Below are positions 6,511-37,701 of a stretch of DNA of 64,000 nt, piece after piece. A program made the translations under genes and the position numbers. The DNA is from Lachnospiraceae bacterium (lineage in GTDB: Bacteria; Bacillota; Clostridia; Lachnospirales; Lachnospiraceae): positions 1 to 64,000 of the forward strand of contig SVEI01000007.1 of NCBI GenBank assembly GCA_015057445.1, read 5' to 3'. The notes beneath the pieces are model-generated. The model was not told the DNA's origin. It was given only the letters and a program-made list of their open reading frames with translations, and did not search any database. Position 1 is the stretch's first letter, and each line of letters starts with the position of its first letter.

Positions 6511-6524
6511 ATCTATGACAATTA

Positions 6525-6618
6525 AATGGGGTGCTGGTAAATCATCCGGCTGAGATACAGTGTAGTCGCTGTGGACCCTTAAACCTGATCCGGATAATGC
6601 CGGCGTAGGAAATGATTT
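6525..6618 (+). promoter_or_regulatory. TPP riboswitch (THI element)
   Basis: The thi-box core is directly readable: GGGGTGC, then CTGAGA, ACCC, ACCTGATCCGGATAATGCC and the closing GGCGTAGGAA. This aptamer binds thiamine pyrophosphate. It precedes a thiamine-binding protein and an ABC importer, matching its ligand. A terminator hairpin follows, so control is probably by transcription termination when TPP is abundant. Confidence 0.96.
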
Positions 6619-6646
6619 TATATTTAGGTATAAAGTGTATTTTTGT

Positions 6647-20937: not shown

Positions 20938-22368
20938 ATGGAAAAGTTTAATGAAATCCTGACGGCTATAGACGATTTTGTCTGGGGAGTACCACTTATG
21001 GTTCTCATTATGGCAGGTGGTCTTTTACTTACTATTAGAGTTGGTCTGCTTCAGGTTAGGAAACTTCCGCTAGCACTTAAATGGATGGTTAAGAATGAGG
21101 AGGGAGGAGAAGGAGAGGTTTCATCCTTTGCAGCCCTTTGTACAGCACTTTCAGCTACCATAGGAACTGGAAATATCGTAGGTGTTGCCACTGCCATAGT
21201 AGCAGGTGGTCCTGGTGCACTTTTCTGGATGGTTGTGGCAGCTTTCCTTGGAATGGCTACAAAGTATGCAGAGGGACTTCTGGCAGTTAAGTATCGTGTG
21301 GTTGATGAAACAGGTCACTCGTTAGGTGGACCATTCTATTACATAGAAAAAGGTATGGGAGACAAGTGGAAGTGGCTTGCTAAGCTGTTTGCATTCTTCG
21401 GAGTATGTGCAGGACTTCTTGGTATTGGTACATTTACTCAGGTAAATGGTATCTCATCAGCAGTAAAGGGTTTCTTTGATCCGAAGGGAGCACATACTAT
21501 AGACATACCGTTTCTTGGTGAGTATTCTATAGCAGTGGTAGTTGCTTCATTTGTACTTGCAATCGTAGTTGCTCTTGTGCTTATCGGAGGAATTAAGAGA
21601 ATCTCAAGTGTATCACAGATTATTGTACCATTTATGGCTATAATCTATGTTATTGCAGCGCTTATCCTTATTATTAGAAATATTACTGAGGTACCTGATG
21701 CTGTCGTAACAATTGTTAAGGGAGCATTTAATCCACAGGCAGTTGCCGGTGGTGTGGCAGGTACATTTATCATAGCAATGCAAAAGGGTGTAGCTAGAGG
21801 TATCTTCTCTAATGAGGCTGGTCTTGGTTCTGCACCTATTGCAGCTGCAGCGGCTCAGACTAAGGAGCCTGTACGTCAGGGTCTTGTATCTATGACAGGA
21901 ACATTCCTTGATACAATCATTATCTGTTCTATGACCGGTATCTCAATAGTACTTACAGGTGCTAATGAGTACGCACAGGCAAATGGACTTGAGGGTGTAG
22001 ATGTTACTACATATGCATTTAAGCAGGGACTGCCATTCCCAGAGCAGGTGTCAGCAGCTATTCTTATGCTTTGCCTTGTGTTCTTTGCATTTACTACAAT
22101 ACTTGGGTGGGATTACTACTCAGAGAGATGTCTTGAGTACTTAAATGGTGGTAATAAGAAGGGTATAATGTTATTTAGATGGTTATACATTCTTGCAGTA
22201 TTCATCGGACCATATATGACAGTTAAAGCAGTATGGACTATCGCTGATATCTTCAATGGCATGATGGCACTTCCTAACATGATAGCACTCTTCGCACTTA
22301 GTGGAGTAGTTGCTAAGGAGACTAAGGACTTCTTTAAGAGACGTAAGGCTGGAGAGGTTGAAGAGTAA
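20938..22368 (+). CDS. Alanine/glycine:cation symporter (AgcS family)
   Basis: A 476-residue membrane protein with about 10-11 helices. It shows AgcS signatures: FAALCTALSATIGTGNIVGV (residues about 62-81), GGPGALFWMVVAAFLGMATKYAE, and FSNEAGLGSAPIAAAAAQT. These proteins import alanine or glycine with sodium or protons. GAAAGGACG lies before the ATG. It is divergent from an amino-acid ABC importer and ends at a terminator. Confidence 0.95.
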   Translation: MEKFNEILTAIDDFVWGVPLMVLIMAGGLLLTIRVGLLQVRKLPLALKWMVKNEEGGEGEVSSFAALCTALSATIGTGNIVGVATAIVAGGPGALFWMVVAAFLGMATKYAEGLLAVKYRVVDETGHSLGGPFYYIEKGMGDKWKWLAKLFAFFGVCAGLLGIGTFTQVNGISSAVKGFFDPKGAHTIDIPFLGEYSIAVVVASFVLAIVVALVLIGGIKRISSVSQIIVPFMAIIYVIAALILIIRNITEVPDAVVTIVKGAFNPQAVAGGVAGTFIIAMQKGVARGIFSNEAGLGSAPIAAAAAQTKEPVRQGLVSMTGTFLDTIIICSMTGISIVLTGANEYAQANGLEGVDVTTYAFKQGLPFPEQVSAAILMLCLVFFAFTTILGWDYYSERCLEYLNGGNKKGIMLFRWLYILAVFIGPYMTVKAVWTIADIFNGMMALPNMIALFALSGVVAKETKDFFKRRKAGEVEE

Positions 22369-22428
22369 GGTAAAGTAAGGCTTACCCCACAGGCTGTAGA
22401 ACACAAAAATTATATAATAATGAATTAT

Positions 22429-22484
22429 TAAGGCATTAATCGTACAAAATATTCTTAAATTATTGTATGATTAATGCCTTTTTA
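22429..22484 (+). terminator. Terminator after the alanine symporter
   Basis: AAGGCATTAATCGTACAA pairs imperfectly with TTGTATGATTAATGCCTT around an AT-rich loop, then TTTTTAATT. Confidence 0.85.
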
Positions 22485-22495
22485 ATTATGCGTAA

Positions 22496-22621
22496 AACAG
22501 GATGCGCAAATAAACTTTATTCCGGCCGCGACAGTGGTCGGGACTAAGCTGACCGTTTTAAGTGTCAGCGTGGACCGACCCTAGGCAGGCCGGCCAGTAA
22601 AATAAATTAGCGCATCCTGTT
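22496..22621 (+). ncRNA. Candidate structured RNA element, copy A
   Basis: A nested hairpin about 126 nt long between the symporter terminator and the PTS gene. Outer stem AACAGGATGCGC/GCGCATCCTGTT; second stem CCGGCC/GGCCGG (22522-22527, 22588-22593); internal loop GCGACAG opposite CTAGGCA; third stem GGTCGG/CCGACC; apical stem GCTGAC/GTCAGC (22548-22553, 22564-22569) with loop CGTTTTAAGT. A second copy at 35404-35525 keeps the loops and changes both sides of the stems. Either strand could be transcribed; on the plus strand it would lie in the PTS leader. I know of no matching family. Confidence 0.6.
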
Positions 22622-22654: not shown

Positions 22655-24835
22655 ATGAAAGATAAAATTTTTGGTGTTTTACAGCGAGTGGGCAGAAGCT
22701 TTATGCTTCCCATAGCCATTTTGCCCGTGGCAGGACTTTTGCTTGGTATAGGTGGCTCTCTTACCAATCTAACAATGCTTGAGACATATGGTCTTATGGG
22801 CGTAATGGGACCAGGTACTACTCTTAACGCAGTATTTCAGGTTATGAGTAAGGCTGGAGATATAGTATTTGCTAACCTACCTATAATTTTTGCCATAGGT
22901 GTTGCAATCGGTATGGCAAAGAAGGAAAAGGAGGTTGCAGCTCTAGCAGCAGTAATAGCTTTTCTGATAATGCATGCTTCAATAAGCGCTCTTATAGCCA
23001 TAAATGGTGGTGCAGATAACTTACTTGAAGGAGCAGTAACATCCGTCGTTGGTATTGAGTCCTTACAAATGGGTGTATTTGGCGGTATTATAGTTGGTCT
23101 TGGTGTGGCAGCACTTCATAATCGATTTTATAAAATAGAGCTTCCACAGGTATTGTCATTCTTTGGCGGGACCAGATTTGTTCCTATAATAAGTGCTCTA
23201 GTGTTCACATTTGTGGGAATATTGATGTACTTTATCTGGCCACCTATACAGGCTGGGATATACGCAGTTGGAGATGTTGTTCTACGTTCGGGGTATGCAG
23301 GAACATGGATATACGGACTTATGGAAAGAGCCCTTATACCATTTGGACTTCATCATGTGTTTTATCTTCCTTTCTGGCAGACTGCAGTGGGAGGTACTTT
23401 GGAAGTAGGTGGACAGCTGATTGAAGGAGCACAGAATATATTTTTTGCTCAGCTTGCAGATCCTAACACAACTCAATTTGCTGTATCAGCAACTAGATTT
23501 ATGTCAGGCAAGTTTCCACTTATGATATTTGGCCTTCCAGGAGCGGCTTACGCTATGTATAGATGTGCCAGACCAGAAAACAGAAAGAAGGTTGGTGGAT
23601 TGCTGTTATCTGCCGCTTTAACATCAATGCTTACTGGTATAACAGAGCCTATAGAGTTTACTTTCTTGTTTGTAGCACCGCTACTATATGTGATTCACTG
23701 TGTATTTGCGGGACTTGCCTACATGCTTATGCATTTATTTAATGTTGGAGTAGGTATGACATTCTCAGGTGGTCTTATTGATTTGTTCCTATTTGGTATA
23801 CTTCAGGGAAATGCAAAGACCAATTGGATATGGGTCATAATTGTAGGTGTATTCTATTTTGTAGTTTACTATTTGCTATTCTCGTTCCTTATAAAAAAAT
23901 TCAATTACAAGACTCCAGGAAGAGGAGAGGAAGAGAATGTTAAACTATATACCAGAAGTGATGTGGATGCAAGAAAGAATGCAGGCGTAACAGGTGTAGG
24001 CACAGCTACGGGAGATAACTCTTCACAAATGTCGGATGGAGACCGTGTATCAGCAGGTATTCTAATAGGACTTGGTGGGAGAGATAATATTTCTGATATA
24101 GATTGCTGCGCCACTAGACTTAGATGTACAGTATTTAATCCGGACCTTGTAAATCAGGATAGACTTAAAAGTACAGGTGCATCAGGAATAATAGCCAAGG
24201 GCCAGGGTGTACAAATAATTTACGGACCAAGGGTATCGGTTATTAAATCAAACCTTGAGGACTATATGGATAGAAGTATATCCGAAGACCTAAATGATTA
24301 TTGCTTTTGCAATGCAGATAGTGACGTGAGTTTTAATGATCTGGAAAATGTAAAACTTGATGAAGACGATGACAGAACACACAAAGTAGTAACTATATCA
24401 TCACCTTTAGCTGGTCTTGTAAGAAAGCTGGAGGAAGCCCCAGATGAGGTATTTTCTCATAGGATGCTGGGAGATGGAGTAATTATAGAACCAATAGAGG
24501 GAACTGTATATGCTCCTGAGGATGGAACAGTAACCATGTTGTTTGACACCAAGCATGCAGTAGGCTTTAAGACAGACTCAGGTATAGAAATCTTAATTCA
24601 CGTGGGAATAGATACAGTAAATCTTAATGGAGAAGGCTTCCGTGTAGTTGCAAAGGTAGGAGATCATCTTGATAAGGGCGATGTAATAATGTACTTCGAT
24701 ATGGAGAAAATACGTGGAACAGCCACAGCTATGTCCACTCCAGTTATTTGTACAGAGCTTAAAGAAAATCAAAATATGACAGTGTTAAAGTACGGTAATA
24801 TTAAGGTAGGAGAAACAATGATACAAATAAGCTAA
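22655..24835 (+). CDS. ptsG: PTS glucose-type transporter EIICBA
   Basis: A 726-residue three-domain phosphotransferase permease. EIIC (about 1-420, some ten membrane segments) includes RALIPFGLHHVFYLPFW and the sugar-site motif GITEPIEFTFLFVAP. EIIB (about 465-550) has the phosphocysteine in DCCATRLRC (Cys485 precedes ATRLR). EIIA (about 575-726) has the phosphohistidine in LIHVGIDTVNL (His649). It takes up and phosphorylates a hexose, most likely glucose; N-acetylglucosamine or maltose-type substrates cannot be excluded. AAAAGGAG precedes the ATG. The leader contains RNA element copy A. Confidence 0.88.
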   Translation: MKDKIFGVLQRVGRSFMLPIAILPVAGLLLGIGGSLTNLTMLETYGLMGVMGPGTTLNAVFQVMSKAGDIVFANLPIIFAIGVAIGMAKKEKEVAALAAVIAFLIMHASISALIAINGGADNLLEGAVTSVVGIESLQMGVFGGIIVGLGVAALHNRFYKIELPQVLSFFGGTRFVPIISALVFTFVGILMYFIWPPIQAGIYAVGDVVLRSGYAGTWIYGLMERALIPFGLHHVFYLPFWQTAVGGTLEVGGQLIEGAQNIFFAQLADPNTTQFAVSATRFMSGKFPLMIFGLPGAAYAMYRCARPENRKKVGGLLLSAALTSMLTGITEPIEFTFLFVAPLLYVIHCVFAGLAYMLMHLFNVGVGMTFSGGLIDLFLFGILQGNAKTNWIWVIIVGVFYFVVYYLLFSFLIKKFNYKTPGRGEEENVKLYTRSDVDARKNAGVTGVGTATGDNSSQMSDGDRVSAGILIGLGGRDNISDIDCCATRLRCTVFNPDLVNQDRLKSTGASGIIAKGQGVQIIYGPRVSVIKSNLEDYMDRSISEDLNDYCFCNADSDVSFNDLENVKLDEDDDRTHKVVTISSPLAGLVRKLEEAPDEVFSHRMLGDGVIIEPIEGTVYAPEDGTVTMLFDTKHAVGFKTDSGIEILIHVGIDTVNLNGEGFRVVAKVGDHLDKGDVIMYFDMEKIRGTATAMSTPVICTELKENQNMTVLKYGNIKVGETMIQIS

Positions 24836-32892: not shown

Positions 32893-32988
32893 TGCAAAAA
32901 AGCAACGAATTACCATAGGCAAAGTCATTTACATTTATTTTTATAGGAATTATAATTATAACTAATACAATGAAGGAGGAAAATGCTT

Positions 32989-35394
32989 ATGAAAGCGAAG
33001 ATGAAAATTTTAGCTTTGATGCTTGGCTCATTTATGGTTTTGATGTTGCTGTCAAACCAAGTGATGCTGGTGTCCATGGCTGAAGAAGCGGAGGAAACCG
33101 CTATTAGCTACCAGGAAGTAACAACCAGTATGGGTCTTGGTGAACTTACTGTATCAGGGGAGATTAAACGTTATTCTTACCCGATATGTATTGATTCTAC
33201 TACAGGAGAGATTAGTACAAGATACGATAACGGATATATGTACAAAATCATTGTTCCATCCAGTAACGTGTATGAATTAAGTATCAACTATAATGGTAGT
33301 AGTGCGGAGTCAAAAATAGCTGGTGCTGTGTTGTATCCATACACTAATGAGGCAGGAGAGGAATTCCTATCAAGCGTTCCGTTTGAACTAGGGAGCGATA
33401 ATAAAATAGCAAACATAAGCATATCAGAACAGGCTTATCTTATTTTATATGATTTTGAATGGACTGATGTAGATATTGTCTTATCCGATGTTGCAAATAT
33501 TGCCACACTTAAGGATAAGGCTATAACAGTAACTAAAACAGGTAATATAGAGGGTGTTATATCTGAAAAAAGCTATATATACTCGTCGGAAAGAAAGCAA
33601 AACACTAGAGGTTTTTTATTAAAGGCAACTCTTGCACCAGGTCAGGGGTATTCCTTGGATGCACCTAGTGATTACAGAAGTGACATTCAGTTTATCGTGT
33701 TCAATGAAGAAGCATTAGGTGTAGATGCAATCAATTTCAGTGATTGGGCGAGTTCTACCCCTGTTTTCAATGATACTACTAAAACTGCTACATATTATAT
33801 TTGGGTATCATTTTATAATCCAAATATAGATTATGATAAAGTGCCGATTATTGTAGGTAACATAGTATTTGTAAGTGATATGCCTGCCACTGCAATTAGT
33901 GTAGACGGAAAGGCAACAGCGGTTAAGTCGGGAACTCAAGATGTTAATACGCTTTCAGTTTATGAGGAGAACGATGAGCAGTATTACCAGATAGAGACAT
34001 TAAAGGGGAGTGTTTATTCTATAGAACTTCCTGCAAATTCAGCCTATACAATTAGATATGAATATACAGGTGAAACTGTTAGTGGAGCTCCTACTCTTAA
34101 TTCATCCTTATATGTTTATAATGATAAGGACTTATGGATGAGAAATCTATTTATCTCTAATACCACAGCAGAAAATTATGATGGACAATGGGCAGAGACA
34201 AGAATAGTTAATTCAGAGAGTACAGCAAAGAAGTACTATCTCGTCCCATATGGTGTATTTACAGAGGGTCAGATGATTGTGTCAGTTGAGCCAGTACCAC
34301 AGGTTAATGTTAGCTACCGAACTCATATCCAATCCTATGGATGGGAAGCCGACGCTAAGGATATTTCAAAGTGGAAATCCAATGGTACTATGTCAGGAAC
34401 TAGTGGAAAGGCAAAGAGACTCGAGGGAATCAATATAGTAGTAGATTCTGCTGTAGATGGAAAGAATGTAAATCTTGGAATTCAGTATACAACTCACTGT
34501 CAGAGCTATGGATGGTTGCCTTGGTCATCTAATGGTGAGATGAATGGTACAGAAGGTGAAGCTAAACGTCTTGAAGCTATTATGATAAAGCTTACTGATA
34601 TGGATGAGGAGTGCTATGATGTATACTACAGAGTACATGCACAGTCATATGGTTGGTTAGGCTGGGCAAAAAATGGAGAACCAGCTGGAACAGCAGGATA
34701 TGGAAAAAGACTTGAGGGAATACAGATAGTTGTTGTTCCAAAAGGAGGTACATTTGACAATAATAAGGATGGTATAAAGTCAGCCCGCACAGAAGCTTTT
34801 GTAGCAAAGGAGGGAAAGTCACCTATAGTGAATTATCCTCATACAAGTAATACCAACCCTGAAGTGCCAGGCGATAATGATATAAATGTATCCTACCGGA
34901 CTCACGTGCAGAAATATGGCTGGCAGGGCTGGAAATACAATGGTCAGATGTCAGGTACTAGCGGAGAGTCAAAGAGACTTGAGGGTATAGAAATCAACCT
35001 TACAAATATGCCATCATACATAGATGGAGACATAGTATATACTACTCATGTGCAGAAATATGGTTGGCAAGGAAAACTTGACGACCAGTCTACTTGGAAG
35101 AAGAACGGTGAGATGAGTGGAACTAGCGGAGAGGCTAAAAGACTTGAGGCTATATGTATTAATCTGACTGGAGGAATGGCAGAAAACTATGATATTTATT
35201 ATCGTGTTCATGCACAGTCCTATGGCTGGCTTGGATGGGTTTCAAACGGTGCACCTGCCGGAACAGCAGGCTATGGAAAGAGACTTGAAGGAATTCAGAT
35301 AGTTCTTGTTCCAAAGGGAGAAGCTGGACCAGCAAAGAACTATGAAGGAATTACATCCGCAAGAACAGAAGGATATATTTCAAAGCAGAATTAA
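32989..35394 (+). CDS. Secreted protein with six ChW repeats
   Basis: An 801-residue exported protein. The signal peptide (MKAKMKILALMLGSFMVLML) ends near residue 32 (SMAEEAEE). Residues about 40-435 form one or more beta-rich domains of unknown type. From about residue 441 come six ChW repeats (Clostridial hydrophobic with conserved W), each built on H-x-Q-x-YGW, NG, G-T-x-G-x-x-KRLE-x-I; they occur as two trios with the same internal order (YRTH, TTH, YRVHAQSYGWLGW). An acidic/Pro linker separates the trios. ChW repeats are linked to cell-surface binding or assembly. The start chosen lies nine bases after AAGGAGG. No sortase or anchor motif is visible. Confidence 0.9.
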   Translation: MKAKMKILALMLGSFMVLMLLSNQVMLVSMAEEAEETAISYQEVTTSMGLGELTVSGEIKRYSYPICIDSTTGEISTRYDNGYMYKIIVPSSNVYELSINYNGSSAESKIAGAVLYPYTNEAGEEFLSSVPFELGSDNKIANISISEQAYLILYDFEWTDVDIVLSDVANIATLKDKAITVTKTGNIEGVISEKSYIYSSERKQNTRGFLLKATLAPGQGYSLDAPSDYRSDIQFIVFNEEALGVDAINFSDWASSTPVFNDTTKTATYYIWVSFYNPNIDYDKVPIIVGNIVFVSDMPATAISVDGKATAVKSGTQDVNTLSVYEENDEQYYQIETLKGSVYSIELPANSAYTIRYEYTGETVSGAPTLNSSLYVYNDKDLWMRNLFISNTTAENYDGQWAETRIVNSESTAKKYYLVPYGVFTEGQMIVSVEPVPQVNVSYRTHIQSYGWEADAKDISKWKSNGTMSGTSGKAKRLEGINIVVDSAVDGKNVNLGIQYTTHCQSYGWLPWSSNGEMNGTEGEAKRLEAIMIKLTDMDEECYDVYYRVHAQSYGWLGWAKNGEPAGTAGYGKRLEGIQIVVVPKGGTFDNNKDGIKSARTEAFVAKEGKSPIVNYPHTSNTNPEVPGDNDINVSYRTHVQKYGWQGWKYNGQMSGTSGESKRLEGIEINLTNMPSYIDGDIVYTTHVQKYGWQGKLDDQSTWKKNGEMSGTSGEAKRLEAICINLTGGMAENYDIYYRVHAQSYGWLGWVSNGAPAGTAGYGKRLEGIQIVLVPKGEAGPAKNYEGITSARTEGYISKQN

Positions 35395-35403
35395 TGAATA
35401 TAC

Positions 35404-35525
35404 AAAAGGACCAGGAGATAACTATGAACTGGCCGCGACAGGGTGAAGCGGAGCCGACCGTTTTAAGTGTCGGCGAAGCTTTATCCCTAGGCAGGCCAGC
35501 CAAGAAGTAAATCACTGGTCCTTTT
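35404..35525 (+). ncRNA. Candidate structured RNA element, copy B
   Basis: Second copy of the nested hairpin seen at 22496-22621. Outer stem AAAAGGACCAG/CTGGTCCTTTT; second stem CTGGCC/GGCCAG (35429-35434, 35494-35499); internal loop GCGACAG opposite CTAGGCA; third stem GGGTGAAGC/GCTTTATCCC (one bulge); apical stem GCCGAC/GTCGGC (35453-35458, 35469-35474) with loop CGTTTTAAGT. It lies between the ChW gene and purH, which converge, and the A/T-flanked outer stem could also terminate both. The transcribed strand is not known. Confidence 0.6.
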
Positions 35526-35534
35526 GCATGTATT

Positions 35535-36713
35535 TTAATGATGGAACAATCTGATTCCTGTAAATGCCATAGCCATTCCGTACTTGTCGCAGCACTCTAT
35601 AACGGCGTCATCACGGATTGAGCCACCTGGCTGAGCGATGTACTTAACACCACTCTTCTTAGCTCTTTCAATGTTATCTGAGAATGGGAAGAATGCATCT
35701 GAACCAAGTGCAACATCCTCCATCTGATCTAACCAAGCACGCTTCTCCTCAGCAGTGAACACCTCTGGCTTCTCCTTGAATACTCTCTGCCAAGCACCCT
35801 CAGCAAGAACATCCATATACTCATCACCGATGTAGTTATCGATAGCGTTATCTCTGTCAGCACGTCCGATAGTGTCAAGGAATGGAAGGTTAAGAACCTT
35901 TGGACACTGACGAAGTAACCAATTGTCAGCCTTCTGTCCTGCAAGTCTTGTACAGTGAACTCTTGACTGCTGACCAGCACCGATACCGATTGCCTGTCCA
36001 CCCTTAGCGTAGCATACTGAGTTTGACTGAGTATACTTAAGCGTGATAAGGGAAATGATAAGGTCAATCTTAGCTGACTCTGGGATATCCTTGTTAGCTG
36101 TAACAACATTTGCAAGAAGCTCGTTGTTGATAGGAAGCTCATTTCTTCCCTGCTCAAAGCTGATACCGTAAACCTGCTTAGTCTCTACCCTCTCTGGTAC
36201 GTAACTTTCATCTATCTGAATGATATTGTAGTTGCCCTTTTTCTTCTGCTTAAGTATCTCAAGTGCCTCTGGCTCGTATCCTGGAGCGATAACACCGTCA
36301 GAAACCTCTCTCTTAATAATCTTAGCTGTTGATACATCACACACATCTGAAAGAGCGATAAAATCTCCAAATGAAGACATTCTATCTGCGCCTCTTGCTC
36401 TAGCGTAAGCTGATGCAAGTGGTGATAACTCACCAAGGTCATCTACCCAGTAAATCTTTGCAAGTGTCTCTGTAAGTGGAAGACCTACTGCTGCACCTGC
36501 TGGTGACACATGCTTAAATGATGTAGCTGCTGGAAGACCAGTTGCCTCTTTAAGCTCCTTAACTAACTGCCAGCCATTAAATGCATCAAGGAAGTTGATG
36601 TATCCTGGCTTGCCTGATAAAACCTGGATAGGAAGATCCTGTCCGTTTGCCATAAATATTCTAGATGGCTTCTGATTTGGGTTACAACCATATTTTAATT
36701 CTAATTCGTTCAT
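35535..36713 (-). CDS. purH: AICAR formyltransferase, stand-alone (PurH C-terminal type)
   Basis: A 392-residue enzyme that formylates AICAR with 10-formyl-tetrahydrofolate in the penultimate step of IMP synthesis. It holds only the AICARFT half of PurH: it starts [16 protein letters not shown], has [14 protein letters not shown] with the catalytic Lys-His pair, [28 protein letters not shown]-type core (seen in parts) and closes with [20 protein letters not shown] and FTGIRLFHH. The N-terminal IMP cyclohydrolase (MGS-like) domain is missing and is replaced by the separate PurO-type enzyme encoded upstream. Both are behind one ZTP riboswitch. Confidence 0.93.
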
Positions 36714-36803: not shown

Positions 36804-37517
36804 CTACTGGTTCTTATTAATTATTCTTGTCTCATACTCACCAGTTGCAATATCGATAAATCTTACGAAGAGTGATACCTTATTCTCCTCATTTAAGTTA
36901 GTCCAAAGCATATTTGTGAACTCATCGATGTCTCCGTCAATCTCAACCCACTTTGGCTCACCCTCAAAGCTTGGAAGTGGATTTCCATCATGCATGTATG
37001 TGTGGATGAAATGTCCCTCACCAGCTACTGGGTTCTCATATGCAAATGTATATCTATTGCAAGCATCTGGGTTACCGTTGTTGCTCTTTAAGATAGACAT
37101 AGCATAGTTATATGTACCATTTTCGATGTGCATAACACCTGAGATTCTAGGAGTATAGTTAGGACCATCTGGCTCAAACTCTCTAACTCTTAAGCTCTGC
37201 TCAAATGTAAGCTGCTTGTCCATACCATCATAGATTGTATCAGTCTGGTCACCGTTAGTTACGATTGTCTTGTTGCCAAGTACTCTAACAGGAGCGTAGA
37301 TAATAAGTGATGGGTCAACAAGCTTTGAAGGGTCAAATGCCTGTGTGCGGATTCCCTCTCCGTCCTCTACGAATACTCTGTTACGGCTGTTCTCACTTCT
37401 ACCCATAATAAAGTAACCAGTTACAGCCTTCTTGCCATCCTTTGACTTACCGATTACGATACCACGTCCTGGGTATGCATTACTACTTAACTCAGTTGCT
37501 AGATTCTTCATCTCCAT
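36804..37517 (-). CDS. purO: IMP cyclohydrolase, PurO-type
   Basis: A 237-residue enzyme closing the purine ring (FAICAR to IMP). It matches the PurO/IMP_cyclohyd family known mainly from archaea: NAYPGRGIVIGKSKDG at the start, GYFIMGRSENSRNRVF, then ISGVMHIENGTYNYAMSILKS and CNRYTFAYENPVAGEGH. The ATG lies about eight bases after GAGG. It heads the two-gene operon, 90 bases before the AICAR formyltransferase, with the ZTP riboswitch in its leader. Confidence 0.92.
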   Translation of the reverse strand: MEMKNLATELSSNAYPGRGIVIGKSKDGKKAVTGYFIMGRSENSRNRVFVEDGEGIRTQAFDPSKLVDPSLIIYAPVRVLGNKTIVTNGDQTDTIYDGMDKQLTFEQSLRVREFEPDGPNYTPRISGVMHIENGTYNYAMSILKSNNGNPDACNRYTFAYENPVAGEGHFIHTYMHDGNPLPSFEGEPKWVEIDGDIDEFTNMLWTNLNEENKVSLFVRFIDIATGEYETRIINKNQ

Positions 37518-37610
37518 GGTTTGTACCTCATTTCTTTAATTATATTTTAGGGTAAAGAAAAAGCCTACCCCATAGCAAAAGATAGCCACGCTTAAAGCAT
37601 AGCTTAGTCT

Positions 37611-37695
37611 TGCCCAGGCGGTCGGCTAAAAATCATAGAAAATATGATTGGTGTACTCCACGTGGTTGATTCCACTTATCCGTCAGTCATACACC
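37611..37695 (-). promoter_or_regulatory. ZTP (pfl) riboswitch
   Basis: On the minus strand the leader reads GGTGTATGACTGACGG, a P2 hairpin GTGG/CCAC, GTGGAGTACACC closing P1 (GGTGTA/TACACC), a linker, and GCCGACCGCCTGGGCA, the conserved 3-prime hairpin of pfl/ZTP RNAs. These bind the AICAR derivatives ZMP/ZTP and switch on folate/purine genes; here they precede the two enzymes that consume AICAR. An AGCTATGC/GCGTGGCT hairpin follows and may be part of the expression platform, which is otherwise unclear. Confidence 0.92.
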
Positions 37696-37701
37696 TTTTT
37701 A

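Follow-up and report, generated by a model that had tools for sequence, protein, structure and literature searches.

Among the described small interspersed repeats, SPRITE of Streptococcus pneumoniae is a terminator-like element present at 30 copies per genome, enriched between convergent genes and found near gene 3' ends (PMC3049150). The account of SPRITE gives it no recognised parental insertion sequence (IS) and describes it as AT-rich (28.1% GC), with an 18-bp duplex, AAAA/TTTT ends and a long T-rich tract; BOX and RUP are other small interspersed stem-loop repeats of the same species (PMC3049150). In the Bacillus cereus group, bcr1-bcr18 are group-restricted intergenic repeats, of which bcr1-bcr3 are reported as MITE-like, and a secondary structure that is conserved is reported for bcr10 and bcr18 (PMC3446304). 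MITEs are described as short, non-autonomous and intergenic, with a transcript that would fold into a stable stem-loop (PMC10969869), and REPs as 20-40 bp units that bear a tag, GTAG or CGTC (PMC3733652).

The window analysed here, meaning the whole 64 kb stretch of DNA, holds two copies of a hairpin, copy A (22496-22621) and copy B (35404-35525), with the features listed in Table 1. Every sequence feature that the original prediction had named in these copies was confirmed, and sequence and fold together bear out its observation that the loops are fixed while the stems are altered on both sides. GCGACAG opposite CTAGGCA and the apical loop are identical in the two copies, while CCGGCC/GGCCGG of copy A becomes CTGGCC/GGCCAG in copy B and GCTGAC/GTCAGC becomes GCCGAC/GTCGGC. 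The region of copy A folds at -65.5 kcal/mol (z -6.98) and that of copy B at -62.1 kcal/mol (z -8.21); in each case, none of 200 shuffles was as stable. Copy A occupies a tandem site, past the symporter gene's separate terminator-like repeat and ahead of the PTS EIICBA gene. Copy B sits at a site typical of the family, with the convergent ChW-protein and AICARFT/IMPCHase-family genes on either side. A simple terminator scan scored no site at copy A, which its 3-8 nt loop limit excludes anyway.

Table 1. Copies A and B and their neighbours in the window (R1 and R2 are the covariance models described in the text)
Feature	Position	Strand	Basis
Terminator-like inverted repeat I1, between symporter gene and copy A, outside the element	22423..22487	+	
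Sodium:alanine symporter gene, upstream of copy A	20938..22368	+	PF01235
Copy A basal stem, locus-specific, 5' arm (AACAGGATGCGC...)	22496..22519	+	inverted repeat I3; paired in fold
Copy A core, family-model match	22512..22609	+	R1 102.6 bits, R2 102.8 bits
Copy A stem P2, 5' strand CCGGCC	22522..22527	+	sequence; covarying pairs
Copy A conserved internal loop, 5' side GCGACAG	22528..22534	+	sequence; conservation
Copy A hypervariable stem P3, 5' strand GGTCGG (partner CCGACC, 22575-22580)	22536..22541	+	fold
Copy A stem P4 and apical loop, GCTGAC CGTTTTAAGT GTCAGC	22548..22569	+	sequence; fold
Copy A conserved internal loop, 3' side CTAGGCA	22581..22587	+	sequence; conservation
Copy A stem P2, 3' strand GGCCGG	22588..22593	+	sequence; fold
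Copy A basal stem, 3' arm (...GCGCATCCTGTT)	22598..22621	+	inverted repeat I3
PTS EIICBA gene, start codon 33 nt past copy A basal stem	22655..24835	+	PF02378, PF00367, PF00358
ChW-repeat protein gene, end just ahead of copy B	32983..35394	+	PF07538
Copy B basal stem, 5' arm AAAAGGACCAG	35404..35414	+	inverted repeat I4; fold
Copy B core, family-model match	35419..35515	+	R1 105.7 bits, R2 100.8 bits
Copy B stem P2, 5' strand CTGGCC	35429..35434	+	sequence
Copy B internal loop, 5' side GCGACAG	35435..35441	+	sequence
Copy B stem P4 and apical loop, GCCGAC CGTTTTAAGT GTCGGC	35453..35474	+	sequence
Copy B internal loop, 3' side CTAGGCA	35487..35493	+	sequence
Copy B stem P2, 3' strand GGCCAG	35494..35499	+	sequence
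Copy B basal stem, 3' arm CTGGTCCTTTT	35515..35525	+	inverted repeat I4
AICARFT/IMPCHase-family gene, convergent, end just beyond copy B	35535..36713	-	PF01808

Other features of the window were recorded in passing. Rfam places a TPP riboswitch at 6517-6628 (+; 67.5 bits, at gathering score) and a ZMP/ZTP riboswitch at 37605-37700 (-; 60.6 bits), the latter upstream of, and on the same strand as, the minus-strand ORFs 36804-37517 and 35535-36713 (AICARFT/IMPCHase family). The ChW-repeat gene (32983-35394) contains repeats with many related DNA matches in G000, G003, G012, G031 and other congeners.

Copies A and B are not a private pair but members of a dispersed hairpin family. A strict pattern of GCGACAG, CGTTTTAAGT and CTAGGCA, in that order, has six exact copies in the window's genome, and its reversed control has none. 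The original prediction had proposed a covariance-model search for further homologues. R1, a model built on the six strict-pattern copies, found 27 distinct places in the window's genome at E<=1.6e-8, copies A and B being two of them; its match table exceeds 27 rows because the near-palindrome also matches the opposite strand. R2, a model built on 87 aligned matches, found no place in the 64 kb window beyond A and B, a third row there being copy A on the opposite strand. Among 61 genomes, seven matched, all of them within the 37 of the same genus: G000 (29 matches), G003 (41), G012 (44), G018 (44), G031 (11), G032 (3) and G011 (2), counts that may hold one place twice, once per strand. The remaining 30 same-genus genomes and all 24 genomes of other genera had no match at E<=0.01. 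In two wider family samples, the window's own genome was the single match, among 299 genomes in one and, with R2, among 397 in the other; these searches scored 13 and 10 candidates per genome, respectively, such that weak or distant relatives could escape. The exact pattern was also found in three Lachnospiraceae MAGs (SIG296, RGIG6221 and RGIG4033) of a named genome collection.

The common fold consists of a locus-specific basal stem, a 6-bp GC stem, an asymmetric internal loop (consensus GCG(A/C)CAG / CTAGGCA), a hypervariable stem, a 6-bp stem and the apical loop CGTTTTAAGT, with a core GC content of 39-61%. The alignment contains 87 matches, 83 of them distinct, and omits the aberrant copies L019 and L034 as well as loci repeating others. 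Across the 83 distinct copies, standard pairs make up 96.2% of pair cells (shuffled, 81.2%), in a pair count that was fitted to the model's structure and so favours it. The same rows have 284 two-sided cells (68.9 shuffled), two-sided change at 17 of the 23 pairs (10.3 shuffled) and a covariation score of 0.404 (0.124 shuffled). An unfitted alignment of six sequences gave 97.1% standard-pair cells, with two-sided change in 9 of 23 pairs against a shuffled mean of 4.0. When the partner columns are slid by one, pairing falls to 46.5% or 40.9%. The covariation first noticed between two copies is thus strong against shuffles across the family.

The loops vary far less than the stems. In the internal loop, GCG.CA is 96-99% conserved, with A at the middle position in 73%, and CTAGGCA is 93-100% conserved; the loop TTTTAAGT stands at 92-99%, save for one position at 82%. 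Among rows from the window's own genome (27 rows, representing 25 distinct places), mean identity is 48% in the variable stem and 91% in the loop regions. In the most distant members, those of G011 and G032, the internal loop is retained in the form GCGCC(A/G)G / CCAGGCA and the apical part is a different one. Sequence conservation fades beyond roughly CCAAT...AAAT, and the flanks nonetheless pair: in 70 copies, the basal arms form a mean duplex of -30.5 kcal/mol with their own partner against -16.2 when swapped, and 2.8% of swapped pairs are at least as stable as the real median. The arms fall into classes: among 69 distinct copies, TGYGC and GCRCA occur together in 33, singly in 7 and not at all in 29. 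The ends show a mere tendency to A ahead of the arms and T after them, and few copies have a long T run past the stem. Internally deleted copies retain the basal hairpin. Downstream of at least seven copies (L008, L028, L029, L031, L054, L055 and L070) there is a shared stretch ending (C)CGGCAC or CAGCAC, which may perhaps begin a further hairpin and belong to a longer composite repeat.

Genomic context was counted for 70 distinct cores from 71 listed copies, with ORFs called mechanically and orthologs unmerged; six cores lie at contig edges and two within small, probably spurious ORFs. The 62 copies that could be placed are convergent in 37 cases, tandem in 25 and divergent in none, and the core lies a median of 26 nt from the closest gene 3' end. 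At the tandem sites, 12 copies lie in the gene's strand and 13 against it, an absence of bias that disfavours a cis-acting leader; the fixed strand and position relative to a gene that would mark such a leader are not seen. The suggestion that copy A is the leader of the PTS gene fits its position only, and finds no support in a multicopy, largely convergent and strand-indifferent family whose occupancy varies from site to site.

The reading that we consider likely is an interspersed hairpin repeat, non-autonomous and terminator-like at its base, mobility being inferred from copy number, patchiness and differences in occupancy. The hairpin would have spread by transposition-like copying, with the fixed asymmetric loops as the feature that a mobilising protein recognises. 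It would persist where the basal stem can do the work of an intrinsic terminator or take its place, perhaps on behalf of both convergent genes. Matched change in the stems would come partly from selection on the hairpin and partly from arm-templated (template-switch) copying and exchange between copies. The repeat would act on its neighbouring genes like a terminator or 3'-end hairpin and not as a ligand sensor. The alternatives discussed below are not mutually exclusive with this dispersed-repeat reading.

Orthologous sites vary, being occupied by the element, by a relic or by an ordinary compact hairpin. For example, the copy A site is occupied in G000, G003, G012 and G018, and G031 has only a short hairpin, AAGGGTGTGTACATCCTTT (score 17.1). 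The sites of L020, L021 and L022 are likewise filled in some species and vacant in others. The L022 site is occupied in G018 and G012 and unoccupied in G003 and G031. At the L020 site, the elements of G000 and G018 are oppositely oriented, and compact hairpins are present in G003, G012, G031 and G033, the last of which is element-free; GAGG at this site is compatible both with a duplication and with a deletion between repeats. No clean empty site was found. L209 is a relic with a deletion between CCAAT repeats relative to its intact ortholog L043, and several vacant sites may be deletions instead of pre-insertion sites.

Some loci are composite. L020 in G000:C103 (1501-1598) has basal arms of its own and lies within what is left of an older copy, the whole being enclosed by an outer terminator-like stem. 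At the L022 site, L197 (G012:C21:87760-88570) has a different hairpin of ~125 nt within the element's apical loop, a hairpin nested in a hairpin. L203 (about 239-323, -) and L210 (about 2306-2348, -), which are otherwise different hairpins, share GGTACTAAG ... CACTAAGGACC; with two distinct examples among the loci examined, these are possibly a second structured repeat family.

The most probable of the alternatives is that the core alone inserts into the loops of resident terminator hairpins, the outer stem belonging to the host locus. The same stem is seen with and without the element at the L020 site (G018 vs G012) and the L021 site (G000 vs G012), a pattern compatible with the core having either entered a terminator or been lost, and element-free G033 also has a hairpin at the L020 site. 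Hairpins scoring at least 23 occur in 25 of 36 element-lacking site/genome rows (13 of 17 where both flanks matched), counts that are suggestive only, since gene ends usually have terminators and the counts come without a null control. However, at least four copies of the window's genome (L010, L014, L020 and L027) have GGCTGTGC and GCACAGCC arms, and compact GGCTGTGC hairpins occur once each in only six of the 37 congeners, G000 included. Because this arm class recurs at many unrelated loci and compact hairpins with that stem are rare, the GGCTGTGC arms probably travel with the repeat. Also against core-only insertion, the L020 copy of G000 carries arms of its own within the older copy, and the two unoccupied relatives at the L022 site are without such a compact hairpin (scores 13.2 and 11.7). 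We therefore regard core-only insertion as possible, though on the unlikely side.

Somewhat less probable is a purely mutational origin of the paired change, whereby arm-to-arm template switching keeps any palindrome paired and covariation says little on function. Hairpins can reportedly arise and be mended by template switching (PMC8794818). Over 22 nt that take in the internal loop, the 3' arm of L019 matches the reverse complement of its 5' arm exactly, unlike that of its ortholog L049, which retains CTAGGCA. Judged from the sequence, the arm identity in L019 reads as a template-switch footprint, the sole clear one seen. The inner stem has also been swapped as a block, both between L008/L037 and L039 orthologs and at the copy A site across four species (GGTCGG/CCGACC in G000 and G003, TCCCAC/GTGGGA in G012, GGTGGG/CCCACC in G018), and the basal stem at the latter site changes from GGATGC/GCATCC to GGCTGC/GCAGCC between species. 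Given the L019 footprint, paired change alone is no proof of RNA function. The original prediction had taken two-sided change as a sign of selection on RNA and not of recent duplication; recent simple duplication of one copy is indeed an inadequate account, but the case for RNA selection is weakened.

On the other hand, correction between arms would erase the asymmetric internal loop, most positions of which are 93-100% conserved, and apical loop strings were found in the normal form 44 times and in the inverted form never. Since the asymmetric loops are nearly always kept although template-switch correction would erase them, something selects for them. The selecting agent would be a hairpin-recognising protein or an RNA role, and the lack of strand bias favours the protein.

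An RNA role is developed furthest in the idea of a functional structured RNA family, that is, a 3'UTR or leader element or a multicopy sRNA, with stems selected on the RNA and loops that bind a protein or target. The strong covariation, the near-fixed loops, the very strict retention of their asymmetry and the maintenance of the element at orthologous sites across species, as at copy A, would all suit such a family. It nevertheless sits poorly with 27 to 44 matches per genome and gaps across the genus, with the even split of tandem copies between strands and with the lack of any promoter-like site around copy A in a simple sigma-70 scan. It also finds no counterpart in Rfam, where neither A nor B had a match at gathering score and permissive thresholds gave E values of 0.67 to 8.5 only. 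We consider it improbable. A known riboswitch or sRNA class was rejected on the absence of an Rfam match, in keeping with the first reading of the sequence, which had recognised none.

The dispersed-repeat reading raises the matter of a mobiliser and a source. PF01797 (Y1/RAYT) had no match in the four highest-copy genomes (G000, G003, G012 and G018), a single 36-position fragment in G031 (11 copies) and full-length genes in congeners without the repeat; a REP/RAYT system was rejected on the absence of a Y1 gene from those four genomes. Searches of four genomes with exact short patterns for each core half found no gene-bearing or autonomous copy, of which diverged ends would escape detection, and seven lone halves picked by eye were all internally deleted or partial copies. 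In the sites and genomes examined, no target-site duplication was established and no transposase found. Nor were any conserved terminal inverted repeats seen that would link the family to a parental IS, the outer arms differing between copies. Movement as a DNA element with target-site duplications had been named beforehand as the case opposed to a structured RNA. The multicopy, patchy and variably occupied family does behave as a dispersed repeat, but the duplications were not established. Copy A had no match in phages and plasmids, and two exact patterns had none in IMG/VR. The 16-nt apical motif occurs on four viral contigs; on three of these the model matched only short fragments (12.0-13.9 bits), and on the fourth it matched nothing. 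A phage, plasmid or viral origin was rejected on these searches.

A more specific version of the dispersed-repeat reading, which we offer tentatively and think rather unlikely, would have a mobile hairpin recognised in folded form (ssDNA or RNA), its asymmetric internal loop and its apical loop being the parts recognised. It would be moved by a non-Y1 enzyme and would colonise or replace intrinsic terminators. Template switching would drift the stems in pairs, keep the shape and loops, and swap arms between loci.

A functional RNA is usually considered proven once covariation is strong; here very strong covariation is found in an apparently dispersed, strand-indifferent repeat with at least one arm-templated rewrite. 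The family is therefore a natural test case for telling RNA structure that is under selection apart from the dynamics of palindromes. Its mobility, if real, would imply a new mobilising enzyme and a repeat able to change places with terminators.

How this family relates to those already described is best seen by taking them in turn; a literature search for repeats combined with terminator and stem-loop or hairpin-loop found no paper, which does not prove the family's absence in print. Like MITEs, it is short, non-autonomous and intergenic and would form a stable stem-loop if transcribed, but no target-site duplication or parental IS is established for it, and its terminal arm sequence is not conserved. 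Like REP elements, its members are dispersed palindromes, many per genome; unlike REP/RAYT systems, the unit is ~100-140 nt, the end profiles have no conserved GTAG or CGTC tag, and the highest-copy genomes are without a Y1 transposase. The bcr repeats, to which we liken it by description and not by sequence, are similarly group-restricted and intergenic, whereas what marks the present family is its compensated outer stem and its terminator position. With SPRITE it shares the character of a small, interspersed, terminator-like stem-loop repeat that is mostly convergent (37 of 62, with 0 divergent) and close to gene 3' ends (median 26 nt), but it differs in the higher GC content of its core (39-61%), in its fold, in its fixed internal and apical loops and in stems that differ between copies. 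In behaviour, the family thus appears closest to SPRITE and the bcr repeats. It looks like a new member of the small interspersed repeats, outside the named families and distinguished by near-fixed loops within freely varying, compensated stems.
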